A stretch of 64,000 bases of DNA from Amphiura filiformis (Eukaryota; Echinodermata; Ophiuroidea; Amphilepidida; Amphiuridae): positions 15,042,305 through 15,106,304 of the forward strand of contig NC_092631.1 of the NCBI RefSeq assembly GCF_039555335.1, given 5' to 3'. Under the pieces are notes generated by a model, which searched no databases, was not told the origin of the DNA, and worked only from the letters and a program-made list of their open reading frames with translations. Of the stretch, positions 7,236 through 60,687 are shown piece by piece. Every line of letters starts with the position of its first letter. Within the stretch, counting starts at the first letter, position 1. Position numbers and translations under genes: made by a program.

Positions 7236-10200
7236 TGACAAGTAGTACATTGCTTACATCTTCTGTAGATCTGTGTATTGCTTTATACATGGTGAAATCT
7301 GAGTATTGATGAAGTAGTGCATTGCTTACATCTTCGGTATAGATATGTGTATTGATGAAGTAGTACATTGGTTACATCTTCTGTAGATCTGTGTACTGGA
7401 TGAAGTAGTACATTGCTTCGTTTCTGTATGTCGGTGTATTGATGAAGTAGTACATTGCTTAGGCCTATACATCTTCGGTAGATCTGTGTCAGTTGATGAA
7501 GTAGTACATTGGTTACGTCTTTGACAGATCTAGTGTATATTGATATTACATTGGTCTTCTGTAGATCTGTGTATTGATGAAGTAGTACATTGCTTCGTCT
7601 TCTGTAGATCTGTGTATTGATGAAGTAGTACATTGCTTCGTCTTCTGTAGATCTGTATATTGATGAAGTAGTACATTGCTTACATCTTCGGTAGATCTGT
7701 ATATTGATGAAGTAGTACATTGGTTACATTAGATCTGGGTATTGATGAAGTAGTACATTGCTTACATCTTCGGCATATCTGTGTTATGAAGTAGTACATT
7801 GCTTACATCTTCGGCATATCTGTATATTGATGAAGTAGTACATTGCTTACATCTTCGGTAGATCTGTATATTGATGAAGTAGTACATTGGTTACATTAGA
7901 TCTGGGTATTGATGAAGTAGTACATTGCTTACATCTTCGGCATATCTGTGTTATGAAGTAGTACATTGCTTACATCTTCGGCATATCTGTATGTTGATGA
8001 AGTAGTGCATTGGTTACATCTTCGGCATATCTGTATATTGATGAAGTAGTACATTGTTTACATCTTCGGCATATCTGAATATTGATGAAGTGGTACATTG
8101 CTTACATCTACGGCATATCTGTATATTGAAGAAGTAGTGCATTGGTTACATCTTCGGTAGATCTGTATATTGATGAAGTAGTACATTGCTTACATCTTCG
8201 GTAGATCTGTGTATTGATGAAGTAGTACATTGCTTACATCTTCGGCAGATTTGTATATTGATGAAGTAGTACATTGCTTACATCTTCGGCAGATTTGTAT
8301 ATTGATGAAGTAGTGCATTGCTTACATCTTCGGCAAATCTGTATATTGATGAAGTAGTGTATTGGTTATATCTTCGGTAGATCTGTATATTGATGAAGTA
8401 GTGCATTGCTTAGTGCTTACATCTTCGGTAGATCTGTATATTGATGAAGTAGTACATTGCTTACATCTTCGGCAGATTTGTATATTGATGAAGTAGTGCA
8501 CTGCTTACATCTTCGGCAGATTTGTATATTGATGAAGTAGTGCATTGGTTACATCTTCGGTAGATCTGTGTATTGATGAAGTAGTACATTGCTTACATCT
8601 TCGGCAGATCTGTATACTGATGAAGTAGTACATTGGTTACATCTTCGGCATATCTGTATATTGATGAAGTAGTACATTGGTTACGTCTTCGGCATATCTG
8701 TATATTGATGAAGTAGTACATTGCTTACATCTTCGGCAGATTTGTATATTGATGAAGTAGTACATTGCTTTAATACATCTTCGGCAGATTTGTATATTGA
8801 TGAAGTAGTGCATTGCTTACATCTTCGACAAATCTGTATATTGATGAAGTAGTGTATTGGTTACATATTCGGTAGATCTGTATATTGATGAAGTAGTACA
8901 TTGCTTACATCTTCGGTAGATCTGTATATTGATGAAGTAGTGCATTGCTTACATCTTCAGCAGATTTGTATATTGATGAAGTAGTGCATTGCTTACATCT
9001 TCGGCAGATTTGTATATTGATGAAGTAGTGCATTGGTTACATCTTCGGTAGATCTTTGTATTGATGAAGTAGTACATTGCTTACATCTTCGGTAGATCTG
9101 TATACTGATGAAGTAGTACATTGGTTACATCTTCGGCATATCTGTATATTATTGATGAAGTAGTACATTGGTTACATCTTCGGCATATCTGTATATTGAT
9201 GAAGTAGTACATTGCTTACATCTTCGGCATATCTGTATATTGATGAAATAGTACACTGCTTACATCTTCGGCAAATCTGAGTATTGATGAAGTAGTGCCT
9301 TGGTTACATCTTCGGCAGATCTGTGTATTGATGAAGTAGTACATTGGTTACATCTTCAGTAGATCTGTGTATTGATGAAGTAGTACATTGCTTACATCTT
9401 CGGCATATCTGAGTATTGATGAAGTAGTGCATTAGTAACATCTTCGGCAGATCTGTATACTGATGAAGTAGTACATTGGTTACATCTTCAGTAGATCTGT
9501 GTATTGATGAAGTTGTATATTGCTTCGCCTTCTGTAGATCTGTGTATTGATGAAGTAGTACATTGCTTACATCTTCGGCATATCTGAGTATTGATGAAGT
9601 AGTGCATTGGTTACATCTTCGGCATATCTGTGTATTGATGAAGTAGTACATTGGTTATATCTTCAGTAGATCTGTGTATTGATGAAGTTGTATATTGCTT
9701 CGCCTTCTGTAGATCTGTGTATTGATGAAGTAGTACATTGCTTACATCTTCGGCATATCTGAGTATTGATGAAGTAGTGCATTGCTTACATCTTCGGCAT
9801 ATCTGTGTATTGATGAAGTAGTACATTGGTTACATCTTCGGTATATCTGTGTATTGATGAAGTAGTATATTGCTTCGCCTTCTGTAGATCTGTGAATTGA
9901 TGAAGTAGTACATTGCTTACATCTTCGGTATATCTGTGTTATGAAGTAGTACATTGGTTACATCTTCGGCATATCTGAGTATTGATGAAGTAGTGCATTG
10001 GTTACATCTTCGGTATATTTGTGTATTGATGAAGTAGTAATTGATTCGCCTTCTGTAGATCTGTATTGATGAAGTAGTACATTGCTTACATCTTCGGCAT
10101 ATCTGTGTTATGAAGTAGTACATTGCTTACATCTTCGGCATATCTGAGTATTGATGAAGTAGTGCATTGGTTACATCTTCGGTATATCTGTGTATTGATG

Positions 10201-10752
10201 AAGTAGTATATTGCTTCGCCTTCTGTAGATCTGTGAATTGATGAAGTAGTACATTGCTTACATCTTCGGTATATCTGTGTTATGAAGTAGTACATTGGTT
10301 ACATCTTCGGCATATCTGAGTATTGATGAAGTAGTGCATTGGTTACATCTTCGGTATATTTGTGTATTGATGAAGTAGTAATTGATTCGCCTTCTGTAGA
10401 TCTGTATTGATGAAGTAGTACATTGCTTACATCTTCGGCATATCTGTGTTATGAAGTAGTACATTGCTTACATCTTCGGCATATCTGAGTATTGATGAAG
10501 TAGTGCATTGGTTACATCTTCGGTATATCTGTGTATTGATGAAGTAGTATATTGCTTCGCCTTCTGTAGATCTGTGTATTGATGAAGTAGTACATTGCTT
10601 ACATCTTCGGTATAGCTGTGTTATGAAGTAGTACATTGGTTACATCTTCGGCATATCTGTATATTGATGAAGTAGTACATTGCTGACATCTTCGGCATAT
10701 CTGTATATTGATGAAGTAGTACATTGCTGACATCTTCGGCATATCTGTGTTA
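7236..10752. repeat. 44-bp minisatellite, about 80 copies
   Basis: The unit starts GATGAAGTAGTACATTGCTT, continues ACATCTTCGG, and ends with a variable TAGATCTGTATATT or CATATCTGTGTATT part. It is repeated head to tail for 3.5 kb. Variants include one-base changes, a deleted ATTGA block, and a CTTCGCCTTCTGTAG subtype. Because 44 is not a multiple of 3, the minus-strand frames (YYFINTQIYRR...) repeat every 132 bp; they are by-products of the repeat and not genes. Confidence 0.95.
9742..10640. repeat. Higher-order repeat, about 341 bp, within the minisatellite
   Basis: The pattern of monomer variants (deleted ATTGA, GTAGTAATTGATTCGCC subtype, GTATATTGC subtype) recurs with a spacing of 341 bp. 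For example 9917-10123 recurs at 10258-10464, and 10086-10295 at 10427-10636. A slightly diverged earlier round begins near 9742. Each super-unit is about eight monomers minus small deletions. Confidence 0.85.
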
Positions 10753-11987
10753 TGATGATTTTTTGATGAAATAGGTTATTTGATATAAAAAAATAAACCT
10801 CTTAATTAACCCTAGCTTTGAGCTTTTACTAATACATAATATAAAAACAACAGGAAACGAAATGCAGCAGGAACAAACAATTAATTATACGAGAATATGG
10901 AATATCCCACCAAAACATTTGTAGCAGTTTCCTCTGGTAAGCTGTGTGTTCCTTGTCAGAGGGGCTCATACCTGCCTCGCTGAATTCAGTGCATACAAGA
11001 AATATCTTTAATACATACTGGTGTTGTTATGATATGCTTTTATACTGTTCCACTTTTGCAAGAATAAACTATTCCAACCAATTACTTTATGTTAATCCCC
11101 CATGAAGTGGTCTTGAAGATTAAAGCGCCAATTGATAATTAATTTTTCAATATCAATAAGTTGTATCCCATTTGACAACAGTATAGTATACCCCCTGGCT
11201 AAAAATGTGCAACTTGCCAGGAGGAACATCTACTAAGCAAAAGTTGTTTTACCAATAATTTTATTCATTACCATTGCGCAATTTTCACTTTGTCGCATTC
11301 CTGCTGAATCCTGCACCGGATCAATGGTGTTAGTTTTGTCTTTCGGTGCTTGCAAAAGCAAAACGAAATGGTTGCTCTGAACAGAGAAGATGCTCTTCTC
11401 TGCTCTGGAACAAAACGTCAGTGATTGCTGAAGACATCTGTTAACATTTTCTGCGCAGAAAAAGCAAAAAGGTCAAATGGGTAAAAACTGAAAATTGTAC
11501 GGTATTTTTTAACCAAAATTTACCAACTTTAAAATTTGACCCCTGCATGCATGTGGTATAGGCCTACGCCTACGGTCCTCTTTAATGTCAAATTTGAGAA
11601 TTTCTTTCAACGTTTATGAAAGTACACATAAAAGAATCAGAATCATTCCGAAAATTATGAGTCCCTCTACTCCCTCCCCACACATCAGGGGCCTCTTCTG
11701 AAAAAAATGCCGACACGTCACTGTAGGCTAGGGTTTTTTTTCACGCTCGGATGAGAACATAGTGAAGTTGGGAGTCGGCTGAGATCCATGATATATGCCC
11801 AACCGGGGTGGGGGCACTTGACACAAATGGCCATATGGGTATGCTTCCCCAGAGAGACCCCCCTTTTTCGGATTTTGCACCTCTAAAAGATCCCCACATA
11901 ATTTGGCAGATCCCCTTGATTAAAATGCTGCCTGGTGGGGGCAGTTTGGGTACTACACGCTGAACTAAAGTCAAATCATATATTTAT
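10753..11987. other. Intergenic with a degenerate G-rich repeat
   Basis: No gene is seen. Around 11800-11960 there is a degenerate dispersed repeat with GGGGCACTTGACACAAATGG and GACCCCCCTTTTTCGG stretches. The rest is AT-rich unique sequence. Confidence 0.4.
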
Positions 11988-19150: not shown

Positions 19151-22100
19151 CTGTAATTAAGAGTAAAAGGTAAAGTGATCAATACATTTTTTTGTGTATG
19201 TGATATTATTGATGTTACAAAAATTAAGGAAAAATTGTTACTGGAACTGTAACAAAGATATTGAATTGGGAGTCCATTTACACATTTTGATGACTAAATG
19301 CTTTTTTTTTTTTGCTTGAAGGCTAGCAGCACATGTTTTTGGTACATAATGAACATCAAAGCAGCCCTTAGGTAAAAACAAGCATTTAGTCCTATACATA
19401 CATACCAAAATATATGCTGCTGCATTCATTTATTAATAACAAGAAGAAATATACATGTAAAAACCGAAGAGAATACACCCAAAAGTACCAACTCCGTCAT
19501 GTTTGTGCGTCACTCATGGACTGCAAAATAGTGTAGGCCTACATTGTACCTCCCAATTATTTGTGTGATTTAAAGTAAGTACTTCTTTTTGTTACACTAT
19601 ATATAAATTAGGTAATTCTTGGCCAAGCTTGAACGTACCTGTTGTGTCTATAATGTACTAAACATGTACACACGCAGTGTAAGGCCTGTGCATGCAATCC
19701 TGTGTTTATCTTGCTTGAGCTACAAGCATGCTGAGTATTCGAACTTGACCATAAATTATCTACAATCCATGCTAATTGCTACACCTGCAAACCTTTTATT
19801 GGGCTATTCCAGTTGAAATCCACACCCCCCCCTATGGAAGACATAACCTTAATCTCCCACACAGGGGAGTAGATTTCAAATGGAGTCACCCGTTCAGGCA
19901 AGCTCGAGATATTACATTTACATTTACTATCTTACATTATCTTGCTGTATTTCAGCTAGAGCGCCAGACGACAAGCTTCCAGGTTTTTTTTTAGAACAAT
20001 ACTGTTACGTAAGACGAAGAAGAAACCCACTTCGGAGCCCGGCCTACTCATTATTTCATTGTACTTATTGCAATTTACCTCCACACATTACGTAATCAAC
20101 ACAAAGCTTTTGTGAGGATTAGTGAGTGGATAAGAAATTGACAGCGGAGGATACGAAGGACACGCCGATTGTTAGTTGTAACGTTTTAATATTTTACTGC
20201 ATGGCATTCCGCAAGCACCAAGACAAATTATGCCGTATTTTTCCAAAGATCATCTCATATAAAGTAAGCTGAATGCGATCTGTACTTTTGTAACATTCCG
20301 ATTGCTTTTGATCACCTATTATCGGCGAATATGCTTGAAAACATGTGAGTTCATGTTGTGTAAACATAATTAGCATGGACACAAATGAAATTACGATGCA
20401 ATACAATGCAATTTGAATGCACAGCAGATCTATAGAAATAAGGCTGCCCGGTTTTATGCAGAATTAGACCACGTCTGGTTCAGGCAATGCCATTTAAAAT
20501 TCACACACCCTGTGTGGAAGATTAAGGTCATGTCTTCCATAGGGGTGTATGGATTTCAAATGGAATAGCCTACATGTATTTGCAACATACAAGCTAAAGC
20601 TTAGAGATGCAAATTATTGCTTTATTGCAAATTAATGATTTCAGGCTTTTGCCAACAAATGCTGGAGGTACACTATTTTGGTGTCCCTGTGTGACAAGCC
20701 AAAATGGAGGAGTTATTACAATAGCATTACGATAGCATTACGCACTGGTCAATTCTAAGTTGATACTCTTTGGGTGTAACCTTTTTGGTAAAAACATGAT
20801 GAAATACGCTCATCAAAAAATGGTGCATAAATACAAACCTTGTAGTTTTTGTTGCTGTGATGAAGCCCGCTGTTTAGTGCTAGTCCTCTCTACATGCCCA
20901 TGCATTTGTGGATCTTCATAATCCAGTTTCCTCCCATAAACAGGCTGTAACAATCTCAAAACATAAATAAGCTTGGCACTTGTGATACACGCATACACAT
21001 CTGGCTGGCCCATCAGACGCCTCACGATGACAAGTTCCCACGGCGTCGGTACCGTTATGCGTGTGACCTCTTCCGGTTTGAAAGACAACACTTCGACATG
21101 CTTGGAATTGCTTAATGTGATGATTTTGTTCCAAATGCTAAAATATCCTGGTTTTTGAGCATCCTGCGGCTTCAATGCATAAAGAATAGAGTATTCCACA
21201 ATTTCGTCTTCGGTGGTACCACTGGTGGGAGCAGTCATAACTGGTCTGATACGCCATCGTCCTAACCAGGACTCCAAATTGCTTAGATTACCTTCTGCGA
21301 TGCCTAGATCTCGATTGATTCTATCCACCCCATCAAAGGCATCTCCGAGCTGTTCACCCTGATGATGTAAGTCTGAAGCCGCAGCAGCCAGAGTAGCCTG
21401 TGCATCATGCGCTTCCATCAGCATCTCCTTCCCAAGTCTTGTTCTCAGCTTTGATCCAGCAATTCCGGAATTTTCCGCATTAACGAGGAGACCTTCTCTC
21501 CAGAAATGCTCTATTGTGTTTAGTACGACGTACGGGTTGGCGCACGTGAAAGACGAGAACCAGTAAGATTTATGGCTGACAAGAAGCACTACGGTGTTGA
21601 ATACAAGCCACGTTTTCTCCATTCTTATCTCTGAAAAGGAATTATAAAAAAAAATCATAGTATCATTTTCAAAATTTTATGACACTTGTTTGGTATTAAA
21701 AAAAAATTCAAAAATAACAAAAATATTAGGGTACACCCCATCAGTCCGAAACCCTGTCAGTAGGAACCACCATTAGTCCAAATTTTAAGCTTAATTAAGC
21801 GGTGGTTCGGAGTCCGACTGACAGTGTTTCGGACTGACCGAGAGACCCCAAATATTAGGGACCTCTTCATTTTTATGTGCTAACAAAGCCTTTGCTATTG
21901 CAGTCAAGCTACTAGCTCAATCGATAAGGCGTTTGACTATGGTGCGAGAGGTTGCGGCTACCAATCCTGGTGGTGACTAATACACTCTCATGGAAAAATT
22001 GAATCAGCTTGAAATTTCCCTGGACAAGGAACTTACTGAGTTCTCATTGTAACCCGTACGAAACTCGGGAACCTGATCCTGGTTGCGATGGTCATTCGTT

Positions 22101-38005: not shown

Positions 38006-39746
38006 CAACTGTGATATTTTTTTAATATTCATTAATTACAGTATTTAAGATTGTATATAAAACCAACTTAGCAACAGTAGGTCTTTAAACCAATTTCTCA
38101 CAAAAAGTCAAGTTAAAATTGATGAGGGCCCATAGATTTTGAGACTGTAGGGCCTGAATGGCCCGTAAACATTTTGACTTCCTGCTAACACTACCCATAA
38201 ATAACAATTAACCTTAAGATGTGTTAAATATGTAGAGGGGTCATTTTAATTAGCCAGGACTTATCAATTTTGAGACCCTATGGCCCTTTGAAAGTTTTGG
38301 TTTATCTTCAACACTGCTAAAAGGGTGAACTTGGTGTAAGTGGAAGTCCAAACTTGTTTTGTTTTGTATTTTTACTATTGGCAAGGTAGACTGAGTCAGC
38401 TGTTTTGGACGTACCCCCGTATAAGCTGGCATCTTTAAATGCAGGTGTATGCACGCCAGCGATTTGAGCAAACACTCGCAATTTGATGCCATGTCCAATG
38501 AAATGAACAGGTGACTTCACAGACTCACTGAGAGCAAAACAACTATAGAGAAAAGTTTTGATTCATGTCATTTGTTTCTTTGGCAAGTTGTGTGTTTGTA
38601 AATGAGATATATGCAATGCAGTTCCACTCAAAAACCAGAAAAGGTGTTTAAATTGAGGCTAAACAATTTTACCTCACAAAAGATCTTAATTCAAACAAAC
38701 ACCTGAAAAGTGGCATCTTTGTTACATTTACTCACACACACACATCTTGCCAATGACCCATATCCAATATGCAGGTCTTTATGACTCATGTTGAATATGG
38801 CATGGGTAAAATCATGGGTGATAAGAATCCAATCCAGTGTTTACATTGAGACAGGTGCAAGGAATGCTGCACTTTATTATGCACACATTAAGTGGGATGA
38901 TTCCCTGATGGTGTATATAAATTGGTTCCCCTCAAGTTCTGTAGTGACGTATATAAACACATCAAAGAAATAAGTCCCCCTCTCAAAATTACGTCATAAC
39001 ATTGTAGAATAAAACTTTGTACCAATAACACTAACTGACGAAATAATTATATGATTGTTTGCTAAGTGTTGTGAGAAGATGACCGCTGTCAATGACTTTC
39101 TTTCTGAACGAGCCCAAATTCAAGTCAAAGGGTGCTCGTTCCAAAAGTCACAAAGTAGTCCTATGCTTGTTAACTGCAAGGTGTATTGGGACAAGGAATG
39201 AGACTGACCATCTTACCACTCACTGTGCTGAGCGCTGCATCAAGATGCGAATTTGCATGGCTGAATGATCAAGAATGTTCCCTTGGTGAGGATTTTAAAC
39301 TGCACTCAACCACAGTCCACATGTGTTTTGCATTAGTGACAAGCCATGAATCAACTTTTTGTGACAAGCATAGGCCTACTTTGTGACTTTTGAAAAGGGC
39401 AGTTTTTGTCTTCAATATGGGCTCATTCAGCCCTGAAGTCATGGACATCTTTCATTTTCGCACAACATTTAGTAAACAGTCATAAAATTATTTCAAAGTC
39501 GGTTTTATTGGTACAAAACGAAACCTTACAATGCTACATGTACGACAAAATATTGGGAGGGGGACTTATTTTTGTTGATGTGTTTAATTATTTCGCTGGC
39601 CGCAGTATGGAATCGTGTGCGTTAAGTTATTTGGCAAAAAGTGTACATGTATGCACACTTACAAGGGCAGTTTGTTAGAATGCTTACATCACAACCGTGA
39701 TATCACTACCGAACTTGAGGTGAACCAAAGAATATACGTATATCGT
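38006..39746. other. PYM 3' UTR and downstream, no gene seen
   Basis: A possible polyadenylation hexamer AATAAA lies at 39008-39013, about 1 kb after the stop. No other gene or repeat was recognised. Confidence 0.4.
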
Positions 39747-43324: not shown

Positions 43325-43693
43325 ACCTCATACCTTTGGTAGAAGAAGCATTTTAAGGGATCTGATATTATCATTTTAGACTTTTTGCACAGTATTTTTG
43401 TGGGAGCTGAGAGTACACCAGACCTGAATAATGGTATCAAATAATTTTGATTTTTTGAAATTGGCGATATAACTCAAATTTTATGACAAATTATAATATT
43501 TATAGTCTTCGAAGCTAAGTAAACTTTATAAATCTAATGATATGTACTTAAAGTGTATATAGCTGGGATGAAAAGCCAACAACCAATTGAAAATTTTGAC
43601 CTTTCATATTGAAGATATACATTTTTCCCCAAAAGACCTCAATTTTGTTGGTGTTTGGGGAAAAAATCCATATCTTCAATACACAGCTACATA

Positions 43694-44283
43694 CGAGGGG
43701 GTATCAAAAAGTTTTAGAAATCGTCCAGAAGTGAAAGAGCTATATCAATGAAATTTTGTAAGTGCAATCACTGGTCCTTATGTACACTATGGTGCAAAAA
43801 TGGTCTCGTAAGTATGTTTACTTTTTTTACAGGTGACGCTAGATGCTAATAACCTGCTGCCCCAGTTACTGCGCATAAACTGCAAGATTGAGAAAATTGA
43901 GGCAAGCAGCGTTATTAAGATCCTGCATTTGAAGGGTTGCAGTGCCTAGAAAATCGATGATGAAATGAAAGTTATCTTCGGTGGTGATTGTGATATTGTC
44001 ACTGTTGCTTTTTGGAAAATGAATTTTATTTCATCACAGATTTTTGGGCACTGCACCCTTAAAATGGAACTTAATCATGCTACATGCCTCAATTTTCTCC
44101 ATTTTGCTGGTTATGCGGTTACATAGGCAGGTACTGACATCTAGCGCCTGTAAAAAAAGTAAACATACTTATGAGACCATTTTTGCATCATAGTGTACAT
44201 AAGGACCAGTGATTGCACTGACAAAATTTCATTGATATAGCTCTTTCACTTCTGCATTTCTAAAACTTTTGATACCCCATCGA
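43694..44283. mobile_element. Mariner-like element relic at the palindrome centre
   Basis: The inverted ends are about 180 bp (GGGGGTATCAAAAAGTTTTA and AAAACTTTTGATACCCC, then AAAGAGCTATATCAATGAAA and its mirror). TA flanks both ends. It contains a piece of transposase at 43870-44030. With most of the coding region lost, it is non-autonomous. Confidence 0.7.
43870..44030 (+). pseudogene. Mariner-type transposase N-terminal fragment
   Basis: The translation reads KIEKIEASSVIKILHLKGCS, a stop, then KIDDEMKVIFGGDCDIVTVA and FWKM. This matches the N-terminal helix-turn-helix pattern of mariner-family transposases (VIKFLHLKG..., IHxxM...YGDxxxS..TVAFW). An in-frame stop interrupts it and no catalytic domain follows before the right terminal repeat. 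Confidence 0.6.
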
Positions 44284-44677
44284 TAGAAGCTGTGTATTGA
44301 AGATATGGATTTTTTCCCCAAACACCAACAAAATTGAGGTCTTGGGGAAAAATGTATATCTTCAATATGAAAGGTCAAAATTTTCAATTGGTTGTTGGCT
44401 TTTCATCCCAGCTATATACACTTTAAGTACATATCATTAGATTTATAAAGTTTACTTAGCTTCGAAGACTATAAATATTATAATTTGTCATAAAATTTGA
44501 GTTATATCGCCAATTTCAAAAAATCAAAATTATTTGATACCATCAGATCATTCGTATTCAGAATGCAATTCGATAGGTCTGGTGTACTCTCAGCTCCCAC
44601 AAAAATACTGTGCAAAAAGCCTAAAATGATAATATCAGATCCCTTAAAATGCTTCTTCTACCAAAGGTATGAGGTGA

Positions 44678-46085: not shown

Positions 46086-47880
46086 CCATATGTAATCTTA
46101 CAAAATGCAAACATTTTTAGTGACACTTCGCACTACACTATTCTTATAAAATGCGAACATTTTTAGTGACATTTACTTCGCACTATACTATTCTTATAAA
46201 ATGCAAACATTTTGAGTGACATTTACTTCGCACTACTATTCTTACAAAATGCGAACATTTTTAGTGACATTTACTTCACACTATACTATTATAAAATGCG
46301 AACATTTTTAGTGACATTTACTTCGCACTATACTATTCTTATAAAATGCAAAACATTTTTAGTGACATTTACTTCCCACTATACTATTCTTATAAAATGC
46401 GTACATTTTTAGTGACATTTACTTCACACTATACTTTTCTTATAAAATGCGAACATTTTCAGTGACAGTTACTTCACACTATAAAATGCAAACATTTTTA
46501 GTGACATTTACTTCGCACTAAACTAATCTTATAAAATGCAAATCATTTCTAGTGACATTTACTTCCCACTATACTATTCTTATAAAATGCAAACATTTTT
46601 AGTGACATTTACTTCGCACTATACTATTCTTATAAAATGCGTACATTTTTAGTGACATTTACTTCACACTAAACTATTCTTATAAAATGCGAACATTTTT
46701 AGTGACATTTACTTCGCACTATACTATTCTTATAAAATGCAAACATTTTTAGTGACATTTACTTCACACTATACTATTCTTATAAAATGCGAACATTTTT
46801 AGTGACATTTACTTCACACTATACTATTCTTATAAAATGCGAACATTTTTAGTGACATTTACTTCACACTATACTATTCTTATTAAATGCGTACATTTTT
46901 AGTGACATTTACTTCACACTAAACTATTTTTATAAAATGCGAACATTTTTAGTGACATTTACTTCACACTATACTATTCTTATAAAATGCGAACATTTTT
47001 AGTGACATTTACTTCACACTATACTATTCTTATAAAATGCGTACATTTTTAGTGACATTTTCTTCACACTATACTATTCTTATAAAATGCGTACATTTTT
47101 AGTGACATTTACTTCACACTATACTATTATAAAATGCGAACATTTTTAGAGACATTTACTTCACACTATACTATTCTTATAAAATCTAACATTTTTAGTG
47201 ACATTTACTTAAGACTATACTATTCTTATAAAATCTAACATTTTTAGTGACATTTACTTCACACTATACTATTCTTATAAAATCTGCGAACATTTTAGTG
47301 ACATATACTTCACACTATACTATTCTTATAAAATGCGAACATTTTTAGTGACATTTAGTTCGCACTATACTATTCTTATAAAATGCGTACATTTTTAGAG
47401 ACATTTACTTCACACTATGCTATTCTTATAAAATACGAACATTTTTAGTGACATTTACTTCGCACTATACTATTATAAAATGCGTACATTTTTAGTGACA
47501 TTTACTTCACACTACACTATTCTTATAAAATGCGAACATTTTTAGTGACATTTACTTCGCACTATTCTATTCTTACAAAATGCGAACATTTTTATATTCG
47601 TTTTTAGTGACATTTACTTCCCACTATACTATTCTTACAAAATGCGAACATTTTTAGTGACATTTACTTCACACTATACTATTCTTATAAAATGCGAACA
47701 TTTTAGTGACATTTACTTCACTACTATTCTTACAAAATGTGAACATTTTTAGTGACATTTACTTCACACTATACTATTCTTACAAAATGCATACATTTTT
47801 AGTGACATTTACTTCACACTATAACTATTCTTATAAAATGCGAACATTTTTAGTGACATTTACTTCATACTATACTATTT
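46086..47880. repeat. 50-bp AT-rich satellite, first block
   Basis: The unit is ACATTTTTAGTGACATTTAC then TTCRCACTATACTATTCTTA then TAAAATGCGA, about 36 copies head to tail. Variants at TTCACAC/TTCGCAC and GCGAAC/GCAAAC/GCGTAC, and occasional 5-bp deletions, mark sub-families. The open frames (SDIYFTLYYSYKM...) are products of the repeat. Confidence 0.95.
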
Positions 47881-48921
47881 TTAGCTCATTTGCTCGCAAA
47901 TGTAGCTATAGGTGTAGTCCATATTTCTGTATGTTTTTTACTTTCTCTTGCTACATCGTTTGACCAATGGAGCTGCTAATTTGAGGGAGCAATCTTTGCA
48001 TGATCGTTCATGATTGTTACTTAATTAGCTAGGAAAATTCGGACGGAAAGTGTGATTTTTGGAGCATTTTCTTACGAAAATTTTTACCAGATTTCATAGA
48101 ATAGTCTCCTTTACAGACTGTTTGTGGTGCTGATCATATTACAAACACTGTTCTAACTCCTTGATCTGGCGATTTTGTAAAAGAGATGTTGAATTTTAAT
48201 TGCTTCAGTGCGGCTTCAATGTTTGCTTTTCAGTGTTGCTTGCCATACATTTTGCAAGTCCATAGATATTGCACCAAGGCTAACTAATAACTCAATGGTG
48301 CTGCTATGTGCTAATAATGTGTAATTTTTCCAATTGGGAGGTTTTTGGGGGACCAGTAAACAACTATAAAGGCTTAGCAGTCATAAAATACTGAGCAAAT
48401 AAACTGAGAGCTAATTAAATACAAAAAAAGTAGGTAATGGTGAATCCAACGGACGAGGACACAAAACACATCAAGGATCAATAAATGATACAAGAGGATA
48501 CCTTGAATAAGAACAACAGGAAAGAAAAAAGCAAGGTACACCAACTTGATGTGGGGAAACAAGTAAAATGCAGACTAGACAGTATGCAGGGGGACAAAAA
48601 ACAGCAAATGTAGGCAGAAGAAGTAGGCAAAGTTCGATAGCCAAATTTTACCAGTTCAAGGCCCACAGAAGTAAGTGCTGAACCTGCAAAAACAACAAGG
48701 ATCAATGGTAATACAAAACTGCACTAGAACAAGTGATGAAAATCACTGTGCATATAAACAGACACGCTTAACCAAACATCCAGAGTAGGCACAAAACAGG
48801 CAAAGTTTGATGGCCAAAAATTGCCAATTCCAGAGCCCACAAAAGTGTCAGGAAAACAGTACACTGGAAGTGATGAAAATCACTGTGTACATAGCAGTCA
48901 AACACAGAACAGACAAAAAAC

Positions 48922-48960
48922 AACCGACGTTTGAGCAGATAAACTGCTCTTCTTCAGGGA
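48922..48960 (-). ncRNA. Hammerhead-ribozyme-like motif, left arm (core base missing)
   Basis: On the minus strand: CTGAAGA, stem II GAGCAG/CTGCTC with loop TTTAT, then AAAC-GTC. The conserved G that should start GAAAC is missing compared with the right arm, so this copy should be inactive. Confidence 0.55.
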
Positions 48961-49793
48961 CAGACAACAAAATATAAGGCAAACAACAAAAACTACATGC
49001 TGTAGTTTAAAAACAAATTCAAGTCAAAAATTGAAGGCAAGTTCAAATTGAAATAAGTAGCAAAAAAGACAGCAAACTCAGAGCAAAATAAGTTGTGTCT
49101 TCTCTCATTGAGAGCAAATTCACTACAAAGTTAGACTGGGAAACACTATATGTAAATAAGCACCACCACAGGACAATAGGGTATTGTCCTAATTGACAGG
49201 AAGTGAATGTCAAGTGGGGTCGCAATCAATAGAGGTTGTAGAGAATGAATAGATAGGATAAGTGGACTAATGTCACTCAAACTGCAATATTATGAGAAAA
49301 GTAATGCATATTAAATAAAGAACAAATAATGTTTATAGACCTACACAATACATGTATAGTGAAAAATAAGCCAAAAATTGCTGGATAAAACACAAGTCAA
49401 TGAAGGTCTCAAATATTAAAGTGTAATATGCATACTGAAAAGAAGGAGAAAAAGAAAAACAGAGAAAGTAAGAAAGCATGTGGTCCATGCATGATAAAAT
49501 TTAATTTCAGTGCATGTACAGATATAGGCCTGCGGATGAAAGTGATAAAGCCAAAATCACTAAAACCAAAGCACAGTGAAATACCGTTGCAAATTGACAT
49601 GAAATATGCCAAAATAGGTAGTGATACAGGGACTGCTAAAAGCTGGAAAAATATTAGCAAACAACGAGGCCTACAATAAGAAAGCCAAATGTGAATTGAC
49701 ACATCAAACATATAGGCCTACATGTAGGTCCAGTAATAAATGCTAACAAGATCCATAGGCCTAAAGATACACTGGCATGTTAATCTTTAACAT

Positions 49794-50545
49794 TTAAGCC
49801 AAGTGGTTGGGTTGTCTGAAGTTTAGAGATCCAGTCTTTCTCAAGTTTCTTTCGCATGAAAGTGTCAGTCTTTGGGGTTTGTCAATACACATGACAGTAA
49901 TGTGATTTGCAGAATGTCCTGGGAGGTTGAAATGTTTAGCTACTGGTGTATTTCTGTTAAGACGAGCATCGGCACAATGCTCAGTCAGTCTGGTTTCCAG
50001 GCTACGACCAGTCTCTCCCACATACTGCACTTGACAATTAGCACATGTGATAAGGTAGACCACATTCTCACTCTGACAACTGAGGTGTTTGTGGATGACA
50101 TGACTTTCACCTGTGGAAGAACTAGTGAAAGACGACCCTTTCTTGGTGTGTGCGACTGGTGAGCCACCACCCCATTTAGGTTTAGAGTGGATCTCATGAT
50201 TACATAAAGTACATGAGCCACATGCAATCGAGCCTCTGGGAGGAGGTTGGGCTGGAGGTAGGGATGAGCGTGCAATCATGTCCTTGATGTTAGCACTTCT
50301 CCGATAAGCTACCATGGGTAGGTTGGGAATAGCCTTCTTACATCTATCTGAAGAATGCAAGATACGCAAGTGTTTGTGAAGTATCTGAGAAAGTTTGGGA
50401 AGCGAAGGATGGTAAGTGATGACCAGTGGAATGCGTTCTGGATTATCAGAGTCTGGCGTCTTAGGCTCGAGAGCATCAGATCTAGGAATCTCTAGAGCTT
50501 TGTTGATTTGTCTGTTGATAACAGAACCAGGATAGCCTCTGGCCT
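49794..50545 (-). pseudogene. Penelope-like linker and GIY-YIG endonuclease
   Basis: An open frame from about 50545 to the TAA/TGA at 49794. It begins FLKARGYPGSVINRQINKAL and continues ITYHPSLPKLSQILHKH, the usual segment between reverse transcriptase and endonuclease. A cysteine motif (IACGSCTLCNHEIHS) follows, then the GIY-YIG core (VVYLITCANCQVQYVGETGR, SLETRLTEH), and it ends FRQPNHLA. The endonuclease half is uninterrupted. It is separated from the reverse transcriptase frame by one frameshift at about 50546, so the polyprotein is broken. Confidence 0.85.
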
Positions 50546-51081
50546 TTAGAAAGCATTCAAGTTCAACTTTTCTCTTCTGAAGTGTCTCAGGGAGGAGCAG
50601 ATGCAGTTCAACCGGAAAGCCAAGCTGTGCGGGAGACTTGACTTGGTATGCTGGGGATGACAGGAAGTCCAGTGAAGAAACTGATGTGAATCAGTGGGTT
50701 TAGAGTACAGGTCTGTGTGGAGAGTATCATCTCTGATGGATACCAGTACATCTAGGAAGGGTATTTCCTTGGTTGAGGATTCAGAGGTAAACTTGATAGT
50801 AGGATGGAATGAATTGCAGAAGTTGACAAAGTGCTGAAGTTCATCAGGTCCATGTGTCCACAGAAAGAAAATATCATCGATATATCTCATCCACATGAGG
50901 GGTTTCTTGGAGATTGAAGAGAGCAGACGTTCTTCAAGACAGCCCATGAAAAGACAGGCCATAGAGGGCGCCATTTTCGTTCCCATACTGGTCCCAAATA
51001 TTTGCTTGTAGTTTGTGCTGTCAAATGTGAAATTATTGCAAGTAAGAACAATTTCCATGAGGTCACAGAAAGCATCAAGTT
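50546..51081 (-). pseudogene. Penelope-like reverse transcriptase, 5'-truncated
   Basis: Translation from the junction at 51081: LDAFCDLMEIVLTCNNFTF, IFGTSMGTKMAPSMACLFMG, then RYIDDIFFLW (the catalytic YxDD-type motif), FLDVLVSIRDDTLHTDLYSK and HPQHTKSSLPHSLAFRLN. These are the palm and thumb blocks of Penelope-like reverse transcriptases. The fingers and N-terminal part are missing. The longer frame extending to 51352 is a chimera with antisense endonuclease sequence and is not a protein. Confidence 0.88.
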
Positions 51082-51082
51082 G

Positions 51083-51430
51083 AAAGGGTCGTCTTTCACT
51101 AGTTCTTCCACAGGTGAAAGTCATGTCATCCACAAACACCTCAGTTGTCAGAGTGAGAATGTGGTCTACCTTATCACATGTGCTAATTGTCAAGTGCAGT
51201 ATGTGGGAGAGACTGGTCGTAGCCTGGAAACCAGACTGACTGAGCATTGTGCCGATGCTCGTCTTAACAGAAATACACCAGTAGCTAAACATTTCAACCT
51301 CCCAGGACATTCTGCAAATCACATTACTGTCATGTGTATTGACAAACCCCAAAGACTGACACTTTCATGCGAAAGAAACTTGAGAAAGACTGGATCTCTA
51401 AACTTCAGACAACCCAACCACTTGGCTTAA
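51083..51430 (+). pseudogene. GIY-YIG endonuclease fragment of the inverted copy
   Basis: Plus-strand duplicate of the endonuclease half of the main copy, beginning within the linker (GSSFTSSSTGESHVIHKH), with the full GIY-YIG core and the same C-terminus (FRQPNHLA). It has no reverse transcriptase in this orientation. The open frame is intact from the junction to the stop, but upstream it runs into antisense reverse transcriptase. Confidence 0.85.
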
Positions 51431-52261
51431 ATGTTAAAGATTAACATGCCAGTGTATCTTTAGGCCTATGGATCTTGTTAGCATTTATTACTGGACCTAC
51501 ATGTAGGCCTATATGTTTGATGTGTCAATTCACATTTGGCTTTCTTATTGTAGGCCTCGTTGTTTGCTAATATTTTTCCAGCTTTTAGCAGTCCCTGTAT
51601 CACTACCTATTTTGGCATATTTCATGTCAATTTGCAACGGTATTTCACTGTGCTTTGGTTTTAGTGATTTTTGGCTTTATCACTTTCATCCATGAGGCCT
51701 ATATCTGTACATGCACTGAAATTAAATTTTATCATGCATGGACCACATGCTTTCTTACTTTCTCTGTTTTTCTTCCTCCCCTTCTTTTCAGTATGCATAT
51801 TACACTTTAATATTTGAGACCTTCATTGACTTGTGTTTTATCCAGCAATTTTTGGCTTATTTTTCACTATACATGTATTGTGTAGGTCTATAAACATTAT
51901 TTGTTCTTTATTTAATATGCATTACTTTTCTCATAATATTGCAGTTTGAGTGACATTAGTCCACTTATCCTATCTATTCATTCTCTACAACCTCTATTGA
52001 TTGCGACCCCACTTGACATTCACTTCCTGTCAATTAGGACAATACCCTATTGTCCTGTGGTGGTGCTTATTTACATATAGTGTTTCCCAGTCTAACTTTG
52101 TAGTGAATTTGCTCTCAATGAGAGAAGACACAACTTATTTTGCTCTGAGTTTGCTGTCTTTTTTGCTACTTATTTCAATTTGAACTTGCCTTCAATTTTT
52201 GACTTGAATTTGTTTTTTAAACTACAGCATGTAGTTTTTGTTGTTTGCCTTATATTTTGTT

Positions 52262-52315
52262 GTCTGTCCCTGAAGAAGAGCAGTTTATCTGCTCGAAACG
52301 TCGGTTGTTTTTTGT
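52262..52315 (+). ncRNA. Hammerhead-ribozyme-like motif, right arm
   Basis: CTGAAGA (52270-52276), stem II GAGCAG-TTTAT-CTGCTC, GAAAC (52295-52299) and GTC (52300-52302) occur in the order and spacing of a type I hammerhead. Helix III is reduced to the self-complementary ACGU, so cleavage would probably need a dimer, as proposed for minimal hammerheads of Penelope-like elements. Helix I pairing is weak (CC/GG next to the core, then mismatches). Confidence 0.6.
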
Positions 52316-52722
52316 CTGTTCTGTGTTTGACTGCTATGTACACAGTGATTTTCATCACTTCCAGTGTACTGTTTTCCTGACACTTTTGTGGGCTCTGGAA
52401 TTGGCAATTTTTGGCCATCAAACTTTGCCTGTTTTGTGCCTACTCTGGATGTTTGGTTAAGCGTGTCTGTTTATATGCACAGTGATTTTCATCACTTGTT
52501 CTAGTGCAGTTTTGTATCACCATTGATCCTTGTTGTTTTTGCAGGTTCAGCACTTACTTCTGTGGGCCTTGGAACTGGTAAAATTTGGCTATCGAACTTT
52601 GCCTACTTCTTCTGCCTACATTTGCTGTTTTTTGTCCCCCTGCATACTGTCTAGTCTGCATTTTACTTGTTTCCCCACATCAAGTTGGTGTACCTTGCTT
52701 TTTTCTTTTCTAATTAAATACA

Positions 52723-53400
52723 CTTAATTAGATCAGGCAAACATGTTGTGAAAGTAATTATATCGAGAAGGTCGTACCTGCAATAGCTACCCTATACATA
52801 ATCTTAAAAATAAAGCACTTGACAGCTATTGCATAAACCCTACCTAGATGTGTTTTTACAATTTTGTATATAAGAGATAAAGTACACATTTAGGGGTTTA
52901 GGGCAAGAAAACCCTATCTGCAATAGCTGCCAGGTGTAAAATGTGTACAATATAGAATGCAGAAATTACCCAAATGTCTATGAAGCAGCTATCACTGCAA
53001 ACCCAGAACGTCTAAATTCAGCAAAACTTCTAGTATTGGAGATTAGATATGAATCTAGAGTATTAGCCGTTGTTAAACTGATACTGGACAAAATTACTTA
53101 TGGAAACAATTATTATAGACACATTCATGGTCTGCTAGCTCCCTCCCAATTGGTTTGATATACACTTTTTCTGAAGATCACTAACTATTATTCAATGTTG
53201 ATTGTTGTACAACTATATGTAAAATTACTGCTCAAATAATACTATTAATAACATCACCATTGAAATCCATGCTTATTGTTTGCTAGCAATTCACTGAATT
53301 GGAAATTGCTCCTTTGCAATGATTTATAAGAGCCCATAATGTTACCCATGTTTGCTTCTTATTCCAGAACCACCCATGTGTAAAATGCACCCTATGCTCA
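52723..53400. other. Core sequence of the 9.35-kb block, no gene seen
   Basis: GTACCTGCAATAGCTACCCTA near 52776 has a partial echo at 52913 (CTATCTGCAATAGCTGCC). One short open frame (52943-53158) has no recognisable family. Confidence 0.35.
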
Positions 53401-56852: not shown

Positions 56853-57230
56853 AATTGTTACTGCCAAACCAATTTTAGAGGATCTGCTGAAATATAGGCA
56901 CTTTGGGTTTGCACTGTATGGTCCTAAACCCTCAATATAATTGTTTCTTGTTTTTCTTCTCACCCAGTTGTTTGTCTCCAAGATAAGTACTTAGTGGTCC
57001 AATTAACATTATTGTTATCTTATTGACTATGCAGCTCATAAAAATTTGGCCCTGCTTTATATTACGGTGAGACAGGTGTAATCGGTTTTTGTGTGAAGAT
57101 CATAGAAATTTAAAACTTGGTACAAAGTAATTGATATAAACAAAAAATACTCAAATGTTAAGCATATTAATTAACTAATTTGCATATTTAATTAGGGAAA
57201 ATGAGCTACAGCACCATTGGTGCTCTTGTT

Positions 57231-58576
57231 ATAAAATGCAAACATTTTTAGTGACATTTACTTCACACTATAACTATTCTTATAAAATGCGAACATTTTT
57301 AGTGACATTTACTTCACACTATAACTATTCTTATAAAATGCGAACATTTTTAGTGACATTTACTTCATACTATACTATTTTTATAAAATGCAAACATTTT
57401 AGTGACATTTACTTCACACTATTCTATTCTTATAAAATGCGAACATTTTTAGTGACATTTACTTCACACTATACTATTCTTTTAAAATGCGAACATTTTT
57501 AGTGACATTTATTATTAATATTATTATTATATTTACTTCACACTATTCTACTCTTATAAAATGCGAACATTTTTAGTGACATTTACTTCATACTATACTA
57601 TTCTTATAAAATGCATACATTTTAGTGACATTTACTTCGCACTATGCATACATTTTTAGTGACATTTACTTCGCACTATTCTATTCTTATAACAATGCGA
57701 ACATTTTTAGTGACATTTACTTCACACTATACTATTCTTACAAAATGCGAACATTTTTAGTGACATTTACTTCACACTATACTATTCTTATAAAATGCGA
57801 ACATTTTAGTGACATTTACTTCACTACTATTCTTACAAAATGTGAACATTTTTAGTGACATTTACTTCACACTATACTATTCTTACAAAATGCATACATT
57901 TTTAGTGACATTTACTTCGCACTATTCTATTCTTATAAAATGCGAGCATTTTAGTGACATTTACTTCGCACTATACTATTCTTATAAAATGCGTACATTT
58001 TTAGTGACATTTACTTCACACTATAACTATTCTTATAAAATGCGAACATTTTTAGTGACATTTACTTCATACTATACTATTTTTATAAAATGCAAACATT
58101 TTTAGTGACATTTACTTTACACTATAACTATTATAAAATGCGAACATTTTTAGTGACATTTACTTCACACTATAACTATTCTTATAAAATGCGAACATTT
58201 TTAGTGACATTTACTTCATACTATACTATTCTTTTAAAATGCGAACATTTTTAGTGACATTTATTATTATTATTATTATTATATTTACTTCACACTATTC
58301 TACTCTTATAAAATGCGAACATTTTTAGTGACATTTACTTCATACTATACTATTCTTATAAAATGCAAACATTTTAGTGACATTTACTTCGCACTATACT
58401 ATTCTTATAAAATGCATACATTTTTAGTGATATTTACTTCGCACTATACTATTCTTATAAAATGCGAACATTTTTAGTGACATTTACTTCGCACTATAAC
58501 TATTCTTATAAAATGCATACATTTTTAGTGACATTTACTTCGCACTATACTATTTTTATAAAATGCATACATTTTT
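57231..58576. repeat. 50-bp AT-rich satellite, second block
   Basis: Same unit as 46086-47880. A larger duplication of about 750 bp is visible: the interrupted unit GACATTTATTATTA...ATATTTACTTC occurs near 57507 and again near 58258 with the same neighbours. Part of it (57780-57900) also matches 47690-47790 of the first block. Confidence 0.93.
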
Positions 58577-58661
58577 GTTGTATTAGGTTCATCTGGATTG
58601 TCAATTATAACTGTTTGATGGGAATTCATACTATCAAATCCAATTTTTGGTGACATACCTT

Positions 58662-58700
58662 GTTACAGTTCCATGCTGCTACGCAGCACTTCATCAGACT
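58662..58700 (-). ncRNA. Hammerhead-like motif in the inverted end (altered core)
   Basis: Minus strand: CTGATGA, stem II GTGCTG...CAGCAT, then GGAAC in place of GAAAC. The changed core A suggests that this copy is inactive. Confidence 0.5.
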
Positions 58701-58864
58701 GGCAACCTTGCTTCTTCTTTCCTGAAGTTGCTGCCGGTGGCGGCGCCAGAAGCTGGTCGAAAATATTTGGTAAGAAATAGTTCCCTTCATCTCTGTTCAT
58801 GGTGTTTCGCCCTCGTCGCCTGATCCAAATTGCCTCTCTAATCTGTCTTTTGTTCCTGCTGTTA

Positions 58865-59430
58865 CTCTACATGATCGTACCGCACTTAGTGTCGAGGACA
58901 TTATGGAACTTTTGAAATTTGTCTTAACAACTACTTATTTCAGTTTCCGGGACACTATCTACCAACAAAAGTTTGGTACGGCCATGGGTTCACCGGTGAG
59001 TCCCATTGTAGCTAATTTATACATGGAATGGCTGGAACAACAAGCAGTAGCTACAGCCCCCATCACATGCAAGCCTAGAATGTGGAAACGTTACGTCGAC
59101 GACGTGTTAGAAATTATCATCAAGGGGGCCGTGCCCGTATTAACGGACCACATCAATCCAATTGACATTACAGGGAACATCAAGTTTACTCATGAGATAG
59201 GAGGTCAAATTCCCTTCTTAGATACCCTCATTACTCGCAAAGAAGACGGCTCAATCAAGTTACTTGTGTACCGGAAAAAGACTCACATGGACCAGTACTT
59301 GCATTTCACATCTCACCATCCATTAGAACATAAAATCAGTGTTGTGAATACGCTCATGGACAGGAAAGAAAAAGTAGTCACAGACCAGCGGACAAGGCAA
59401 TCGAAGAGGGTAAAATTAAACATGCGCTGA
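58865..59430 (+). pseudogene. Penelope-like reverse transcriptase, 5'-truncated
   Basis: The translation contains LHDRTALSVEDIMELLKFVL, KFGTAMGSPVSPIVANLYME, RYVDDVLEII (catalytic YVDD) and PFLDTLITRKEDGSIKLLVY: the palm and thumb blocks of Penelope-like reverse transcriptases. It belongs to a different lineage from the 48-52 kb copy (SPVSP rather than KMAPS). The frame opens directly after the junction with the inverted end, so the N-terminal half is missing. A frameshift near 59390 and an in-frame TGA near 59430 separate it from the linker. Confidence 0.9.
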
Positions 59431-59439
59431 AACAATGAG

Positions 59440-60080
59440 GATACCCTGATTGGGCTTTCAACAAGACACACAAGGACAAGACCAGTCAGCAGAAAAAGTC
59501 TTAAAAGAAAAGCGACACGAACAGGAAAAGAAAAGTCGGTTGGTCGTGGTTCCTTTTGTGGAAGGATTATCACACAAAGTTAGGAGGATTTTCAACAAGC
59601 ACGATGTAGCGACAGCCTTCAAACCACATAAAACAATTCGCAATATTTTAGTTCACCCTAAGGACAAATGGGACATATCACAAACCTCGGACTGCGTCTA
59701 TGAAATCCCATGCAAGAATTGTAATAAGACCTACATTGGTGAAACTTCACGCTTGTTTGGTACACGTCTCAAGGAACATCGCGGAGAAGGCAGCACGTGG
59801 GGTACATACCCGGTCACAGAGAAAACATTCACTCACAGAAGTAAATAAGTCTGCTATTACAGACCACGTTGCGCAAAACAACCATGTCATAGGTTGGGAG
59901 GACGCTAACATTAGATCAAGGGAGACCAACAGGAACAAAAGACAGATTAGAGAGGCAATTTGGATCAGGCGACGAGGGCGAAACACCATGAACAGAGATG
60001 AAGGGAACTATTTCTTACCAAATATTTTCGACCAGCTTCTGGCGCCGCCACCGGCAGCAACTTCAGGAAAGAAGAAGTAA
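59440..60080 (+). pseudogene. Penelope-like GIY-YIG endonuclease, frameshifted
   Basis: The linker (VVVPFVEGLSHKVRRIFNKH, TIRNILVHPKDK) leads to the GIY-YIG core CVYEIPCKNCNKTYIGETSR and FGTRLKEHR. The frame then shifts near 59790. The C-terminal part continues in another frame: SAITDHVAQNNHVIGWEDA, REAIWIRRRGRNTMNRDEGN, YFLPNIFDQLL. The catalytic domain blocks are present but the protein cannot be made from one frame. Confidence 0.87.
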
Positions 60081-60084
60081 GGTT

Positions 60085-60135
60085 GCCAGTCTGATGAAGT
60101 GCTGCATAGCAGCATGAAACTGTAACAAGGTATGT
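60085..60135 (+). ncRNA. Hammerhead-ribozyme-like motif at the 3' end of the second Penelope-like element
   Basis: CTGATGA (60091-60097), stem II GTGCTG-CATAG-CAGCAT with one G-U pair, GAAAC (60116-60120), then TGTA at the expected cleavage side. The core is intact here, unlike in the inverted copy at 58662. Helix III would be minimal and helix I is only partly paired. Confidence 0.55.
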
Positions 60136-60175
60136 CACCAAAAATTGGATTTGATAGTATGAATTCCCATCAAAC

Positions 60176-60687
60176 TGCGTACATTTTTAGTGACATTTAC
60201 TTCTATTCTTTTAAAATGCTAAACATTTTAGTGACATTTACTTAGACTATACTATTCTTATAAAATGCTAACATTTTTAGTGACATTTACTTCATACTAT
60301 ACTATTCTTATAAAATGCAAACATTTTAGTGACATTTACTTCGCACTATACTATTCTTATAAAATGCGAACATTTTTAGTGACATTTACTTCACACTATA
60401 ACTATTCTTATAAAATGCGAACATTTTTAGTGACATTTACTTCACACTATACTATTCCTTTAAAATGCGAACATTTTTAGTGACATTTACTTCTATTCTT
60501 TTAAAATGCGAACATTTTAGTGACATTTACTTCGCACTATACTATTCTTATAAAATGCGAACATTTTTAGTGACATTTACTTCATACTATATACTATTCT
60601 TATAAAATGCAAACATTTTAGTGACATTTACTTCGCACTATACTATTCTTATAAAATGTGAACATTTTTAGTGACATTCACTTCATT
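60176..60687. repeat. 50-bp AT-rich satellite, third block
   Basis: About 10 copies of the same unit, separated from the second block only by the Penelope-like insertion. It stops a few bases before the stop codon of the EGF receptor gene on the other strand. Confidence 0.93.

Follow-up and report, generated by a model that had tools for sequence, protein, structure and literature searches.

Two insertions of Penelope-like elements (PLEs) in the window, which is the whole 64,000-nucleotide stretch of Amphiura filiformis DNA that was analysed, share a head-to-head layout. In both, a long unit with reverse transcriptase (RT) and GIY-YIG endonuclease (EN) sequence is joined to a shorter inverted arm repeating its 3' part, a single duplication of the target surrounds the whole, and the 3' ends of the two arms are unequal. 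Each element is probably the product of one PLE integration, made by two opposed target-primed reverse transcriptions followed by end joining. The layout is not new; it is a further example of a documented PLE arrangement that is ordinary for the group. The unequal 3' ends, which were overlooked in the earlier note on this DNA, together with published in-vitro data allow a mechanism to be proposed, where that note had named none.

Structure and coding content of the first insertion

The first insertion (E1) occupies positions 48424-52709 and is bounded by exact 13-bp target duplications. Its features are listed below.

48411..48423, no strand: left target duplication of E1, CTAATTAAATACA; exact match to 52710-52722
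48424..51081, minus strand: long unit of E1, a likely 5'-truncated PLE with RT piece, GIY-YIG endonuclease, 3' UTR and 97-nt tail
48424..48520, minus strand: 3' tail of E1, 97 nt, missing from the inverted arm
49797..50690, minus strand: ORF of E1 with GIY-YIG endonuclease (PF01541), in a frame other than that of the RT piece
50549..51079, minus strand: RT piece of E1 with FGTSMG and YIDD motifs, upstream sequence missing (PF00078; 36% identical to that of E2)
51082..52709, plus strand: inverted short arm of E1, part of the EN and 3' UTR, from alignment to the long unit
52270..52302, plus strand: hammerhead-like core CTGAAGA-stem II-GAAAC-GTC in the short arm of E1, from a pattern search
52710..52722, no strand: right target duplication of E1, CTAATTAAATACA; exact match to 48411-48423

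A perfect 13-bp duplication at the outer edges, with both arms inside, had been claimed and was confirmed, as CTAATTAAATACA has two exact copies in the window (48411-48423 and 52710-52722; plus-strand search). The end of E1 had been placed at 52710, which is one base too far. Under the same edge rule, a direct repeat of at least 13 bp arose for 19 of 20,000 pairs of positions drawn at random from the window, with the satellites left in. The rejoined target (48411-48423 plus 52723-52731) contains a palindrome with 8-bp arms, CTAATTAA-ATACAC-TTAATTAG.

The inverted arm is a 1.63-kb copy of the element's own 3' part, placed head-to-head with the long unit. The near identity of the arms that had been reported is borne out by their alignment (51082-52708), in which 1627 nt stand against 1622 nt: 1617 columns are identical, 4 hold substitutions and 7 hold gaps. 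The 11 differing columns hold six indels as against four substitutions, an unusual ratio, and the single-base gaps between the arms may include sequencing errors. A stretch of 939 nt is present once. The RT is found in one orientation only, as had been stated, and part of the EN ORF is found twice. No direct repeats of at least 60 nt were found within E1 or E2.

The assignment of E1 to the Penelope-like elements agrees with the domains found, RT (PF00078) and GIY-YIG (PF01541). The ORF containing the RT piece (50546-51364) matches PF00078 with E 1e-5 and 25.8 bits, below the curated 29.6, and the GIY-YIG domain, C-terminal to the RT, matches PF01541 with 29.7 bits at a cut-off of 22.6. The RT pieces of both insertions show YIDD/YVDD and FGTxMG, which we take to be RT motifs. 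The 5' end of E1 is likely truncated, given that its RT, like that of the second insertion, begins shortly before the FGT motif: the 5' ends are lost at 51081 in E1 and 58862 in E2, 83 and 110 nt before FGT (n=2). The open frame at 50546-51364, of 272 codons, spans the E1 join and links antisense sequence of the arm with the RT piece; this is probably fortuitous.

The second insertion

The second insertion (E2, 58577-60175) had been described as having the same layout, and this was confirmed for what is a PLE of a different family, with 36% identity to E1 over the aligned RT pieces. Its 13-bp duplication has one mismatch.

58564..58576, no strand: left target duplication of E2, TGCATACATTTTT, read by eye
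58577..58861, minus strand: inverted short arm of E2, including a 36-nt tail at 58577-58612
58862..60175, plus strand: long unit of E2, a likely 5'-truncated PLE with RT and GIY-YIG pieces in broken frames, 3' end without tail
60091..60120, plus strand: hammerhead-like core CTGATGA-stem II-GAAAC in the long unit of E2, from a pattern search
60176..60188, no strand: right target duplication of E2, TGCGTACATTTTT, 1 mismatch, read by eye

The arms, 58613-58861 and 59927-60175, agree at 245 of their 249 positions and differ by 4 transitions. The RT piece matches PF00078 with E 2e-4, below the Pfam curated score, and the GIY-YIG piece matches PF01541 with 21.2 bits, just under the cut-off. E2 lies inside a 50-bp satellite. 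When its flanks are rejoined at one copy of the duplication, 34 nt of the satellite unit run across the join, and this stretch has 13 plus-strand places with at most one substitution, of which one, the unit just upstream of E2, is exact. An edge of the E2 type (13 bp, at most one mismatch) was found for 250 of 20,000 random pairs of satellite breakpoints. Because the flanks are satellite, the edge repeat of E2 is weaker evidence than that of E1.

3' ends, tails and hammerhead-like cores

In E1 the long unit runs 97 nt beyond the end of the short arm, and in E2 the short arm runs 36 nt beyond the end of the long unit. A scan of both strands of the window with the pattern CTGANGA-stem II-GAAAC, which we take to be that of a hammerhead core, gave two matches, both in PLE 3' parts. 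In each element the full core is kept in one arm only: the long unit of E1 has a gap in place of one core G (52295 vs 48932), and the short arm of E2 reads GGAAC for GAAAC (60117 vs 58671). The ends are 55 and 91 nt downstream of the core in E2, and 408 and 505 nt downstream of it in E1, whose two ends fall in T-runs and not in AC-rich sequence. Rfam gave no hammerhead match at E1 or E2, and only weak matches to other families. According to the review PMC6155905, PLE hammerheads are usually minimal and without helix III. The stretch from the hammerhead-like motif to the E1 3' end (52299-52712) also contains imperfect direct duplications, about 75 and 26 nt long.

Comparison with known Penelope systems

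PLEs have been documented with inverted head-to-head pseudo-LTRs (pLTRs), target duplications (TSDs) and, optionally, a short 'tail' at the 3' end (PMC3846280, PMC8969392, PMC11167929). In PMC3846280 rotifer Penelope insertions are described in which an inverted pLTR completes the element; the named cases have TSDs 8 to 10 bp long, a 31-bp tail is reported, and among inverted arrangements the head-to-head form is said to be the one seen most often. PMC8969392 counts inverted pLTRs and extensions at the 3' end among the peculiarities of PLEs. Because these two papers describe inverted pLTRs in PLEs, the layout of E1 and E2 is of a known kind, and the earlier note's treatment of the structure as something new is not supported.

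The closest likeness is to the Penelope elements of Adineta vaga (Pen2a_Av and others; PMC3846280), which have an ORF with RT and GIY-YIG, a head-to-head inverted 3' repeat, one TSD round the insert in several rotifer cases and, on one of the repeats, an optional tail of 31 bp. Pen2a has pLTRs of 218 bp, with an inverted one of 181 bp as well as a direct one (PMC3846280), whereas the inverted arm is 1.63 kb in E1 and 285 bp in E2, with no direct repeat of at least 60 nt found. Unlike the rotifer copies, some of which have no TSD, E1 and E2 have 13-bp TSDs and joins without palindromes beyond chance. Both carry pLTR-like inverted repeats, with a tail of 36 nt in E2 and of 97 nt in E1, the latter outside the published range of 30-40 bp.

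The in-vitro data concern the PLE of Anolis carolinensis (PAc, Poseidon), which cuts and extends both target strands and prefers AT-rich targets (PMC11167929). PAc starts reverse transcription at two adjacent internal sites, the interval between which equals the genomic tail of 30-40 bp; its commonest start falls at 111-118 bp of the ORF, and its ribozyme cuts at 26 bp (PMC11167929), so that by our own subtraction of these figures the distance from start to cut is 85-92 nt. Both insertions resemble PAc in having two alternative 3' ends and, before the 3' end, a putative hammerhead motif. E2 comes near it also in its 36-nt tail and in its distal end 91 nt past the core, within a few bases of the PAc distance, the reference points being not identical. 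E1 differs from PAc in its much longer tail and core-to-end spacing. Tandem copies are described in PMC11167929, and its main text, in which a word search finds 'inverted' once, of a blocked primer, does not appear to link two-strand extension to inverted insertions.

Mechanism of integration

In the favoured mechanism a staggered cut of the two target strands, offset by about 13 bp, would leave 3' overhangs. The 3' end of each strand would then prime reverse transcription of the sense element RNA, starting at either of two alternative positions within that RNA. The two cDNAs would grow inward from the 3' parts, stop at different points and finally be joined to each other by end joining. Priming from two overhangs would leave the 3' ends outward and the heads inward, with unequal arms, a single outer duplication and a start site of its own for each arm. 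Consistent with this, the 13-bp duplications lie outside both arms in E1 and E2, and the 3' ends of the arms differ in each insertion, by 97 nt in E1 and 36 nt in E2. The ends of E2 also come near the starts used by the Anolis PLE in vitro. The recurrence of the layout in two PLE families points to a regular mechanism, and to that extent the earlier note, which had called for one, is upheld, for the two PLEs found in the window (n=2).

Several points stand against this mechanism. It rests on two insertions of two families; the spacing of 408 and 505 nt, the 97-nt tail and the T-run ends of E1 are unlike those of Anolis; the near-equal truncation of the RT (83 and 110 nt before FGT) is not predicted by random stopping of cDNAs; and the hammerhead-like motif is not recognised by Rfam. 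In the portion of the open-licence literature that was searched, no paper was found that attributes inverted pLTRs to priming on both strands.

Self-priming, in which a strand would fold back at its growing end and copy its own 3' part into an inverted arm, has been proposed for rotifer Penelope on an antisense template, and is preferred in PMC3846280 because of the junction palindromes in the rotifer copies described there. The short arm of E1, which lacks the tail, is as expected of a copy that ended early, and both joins pair with the expected site at 5 of 8 positions; however, 13.7% of random pairs also reach 5 of 8 or better. Under self-priming hairpins would be expected at the join, and neither join has a palindrome beyond chance: the best at the E1 join is 6 bp, a length reached at 60 of 400 random points, and the best at the E2 join is only 3 bp. 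In addition, the short arm of E2 holds 36 nt that are missing from the supposed template, and thus was not copied from the RT-bearing unit as it now stands. Self-priming is accordingly judged unlikely.

Insertion of a ready-made composite, in which an older head-to-head copy was transcribed as a whole and its transcript inserted once, would place one TSD round the whole, as observed, and the near-equal 5' truncation of E1 and E2 could reflect the spread of certain composites. It gives no reason for element 3' ends at both outer edges, and E1 and E2 belong to different families and have different arm lengths, which makes this origin quite improbable. More improbable still is that the assembly folded back, or that two independent insertions came to lie together. 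Long inverted repeats are prone to misassembly, and the single-base gaps between the arms of E1 could include errors of sequencing. A simple fold-back, however, gives equal arms and no TSD, and is made unlikely by the arms of E1, which are unequal around the single 939-nt stretch, differ at 11 columns and end differently; two separate insertions would each be expected to leave a TSD of their own. LINE-1-style twin priming also yields inversions inside a single TSD, but it inverts the 5' segment of one RNA copy without duplicating the 3' end, and with the 3' part present in both arms over 1.6 kb in E1, a pattern that does not fit a twin-primed LINE, it can hardly apply here.

Beyond these two insertions, it seems reasonably probable that head-to-head Penelope copies record two opposed primings at one cut, with an independent choice of start site for each arm. 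If this is true, inverted pLTRs would arise in the ordinary course of a two-strand integration unlike that of LINEs, and not by self-priming. Two insertions, one of them near the Anolis in-vitro starts, give a simple genome-wide test of independent tail choice per arm.

Searches for relatives and other features of the window

A tblastn search of the window with the RT and EN pieces of E1 and E2 gave nothing convincing besides the two insertions; two weak matches, 19638-19751 (E 0.46) and 39458-39544 (E 0.29), were not accepted as PLE copies. No relatives were found for the E1 RT piece in viral_contigs, phages or PDB, for the E1 DNA (48424-52709) in phages, or for the E2 RT piece in viral_contigs or plasmids, and no relative was confirmed in genome_contigs with the two RT pieces as an alignment.

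The window also contains a satellite array of about 79 copies of a 44-bp unit (7297-10758) and arrays of the 50-bp unit at 46096-47883, 57229-58576 and 60203-60685, interrupted by E2. A long inverted-repeat element at 43400-44600 has fully complementary arms of 202 nt (43431-43632 and 44342-44543), with more complementary sequence outside them by eye, and is possibly a foldback DNA transposon. On the minus strand, 2461-2527 has an Rfam tRNA match of 44.1 bits, not reported by ARAGORN, and is perhaps a tRNA-derived repeat or pseudogene.
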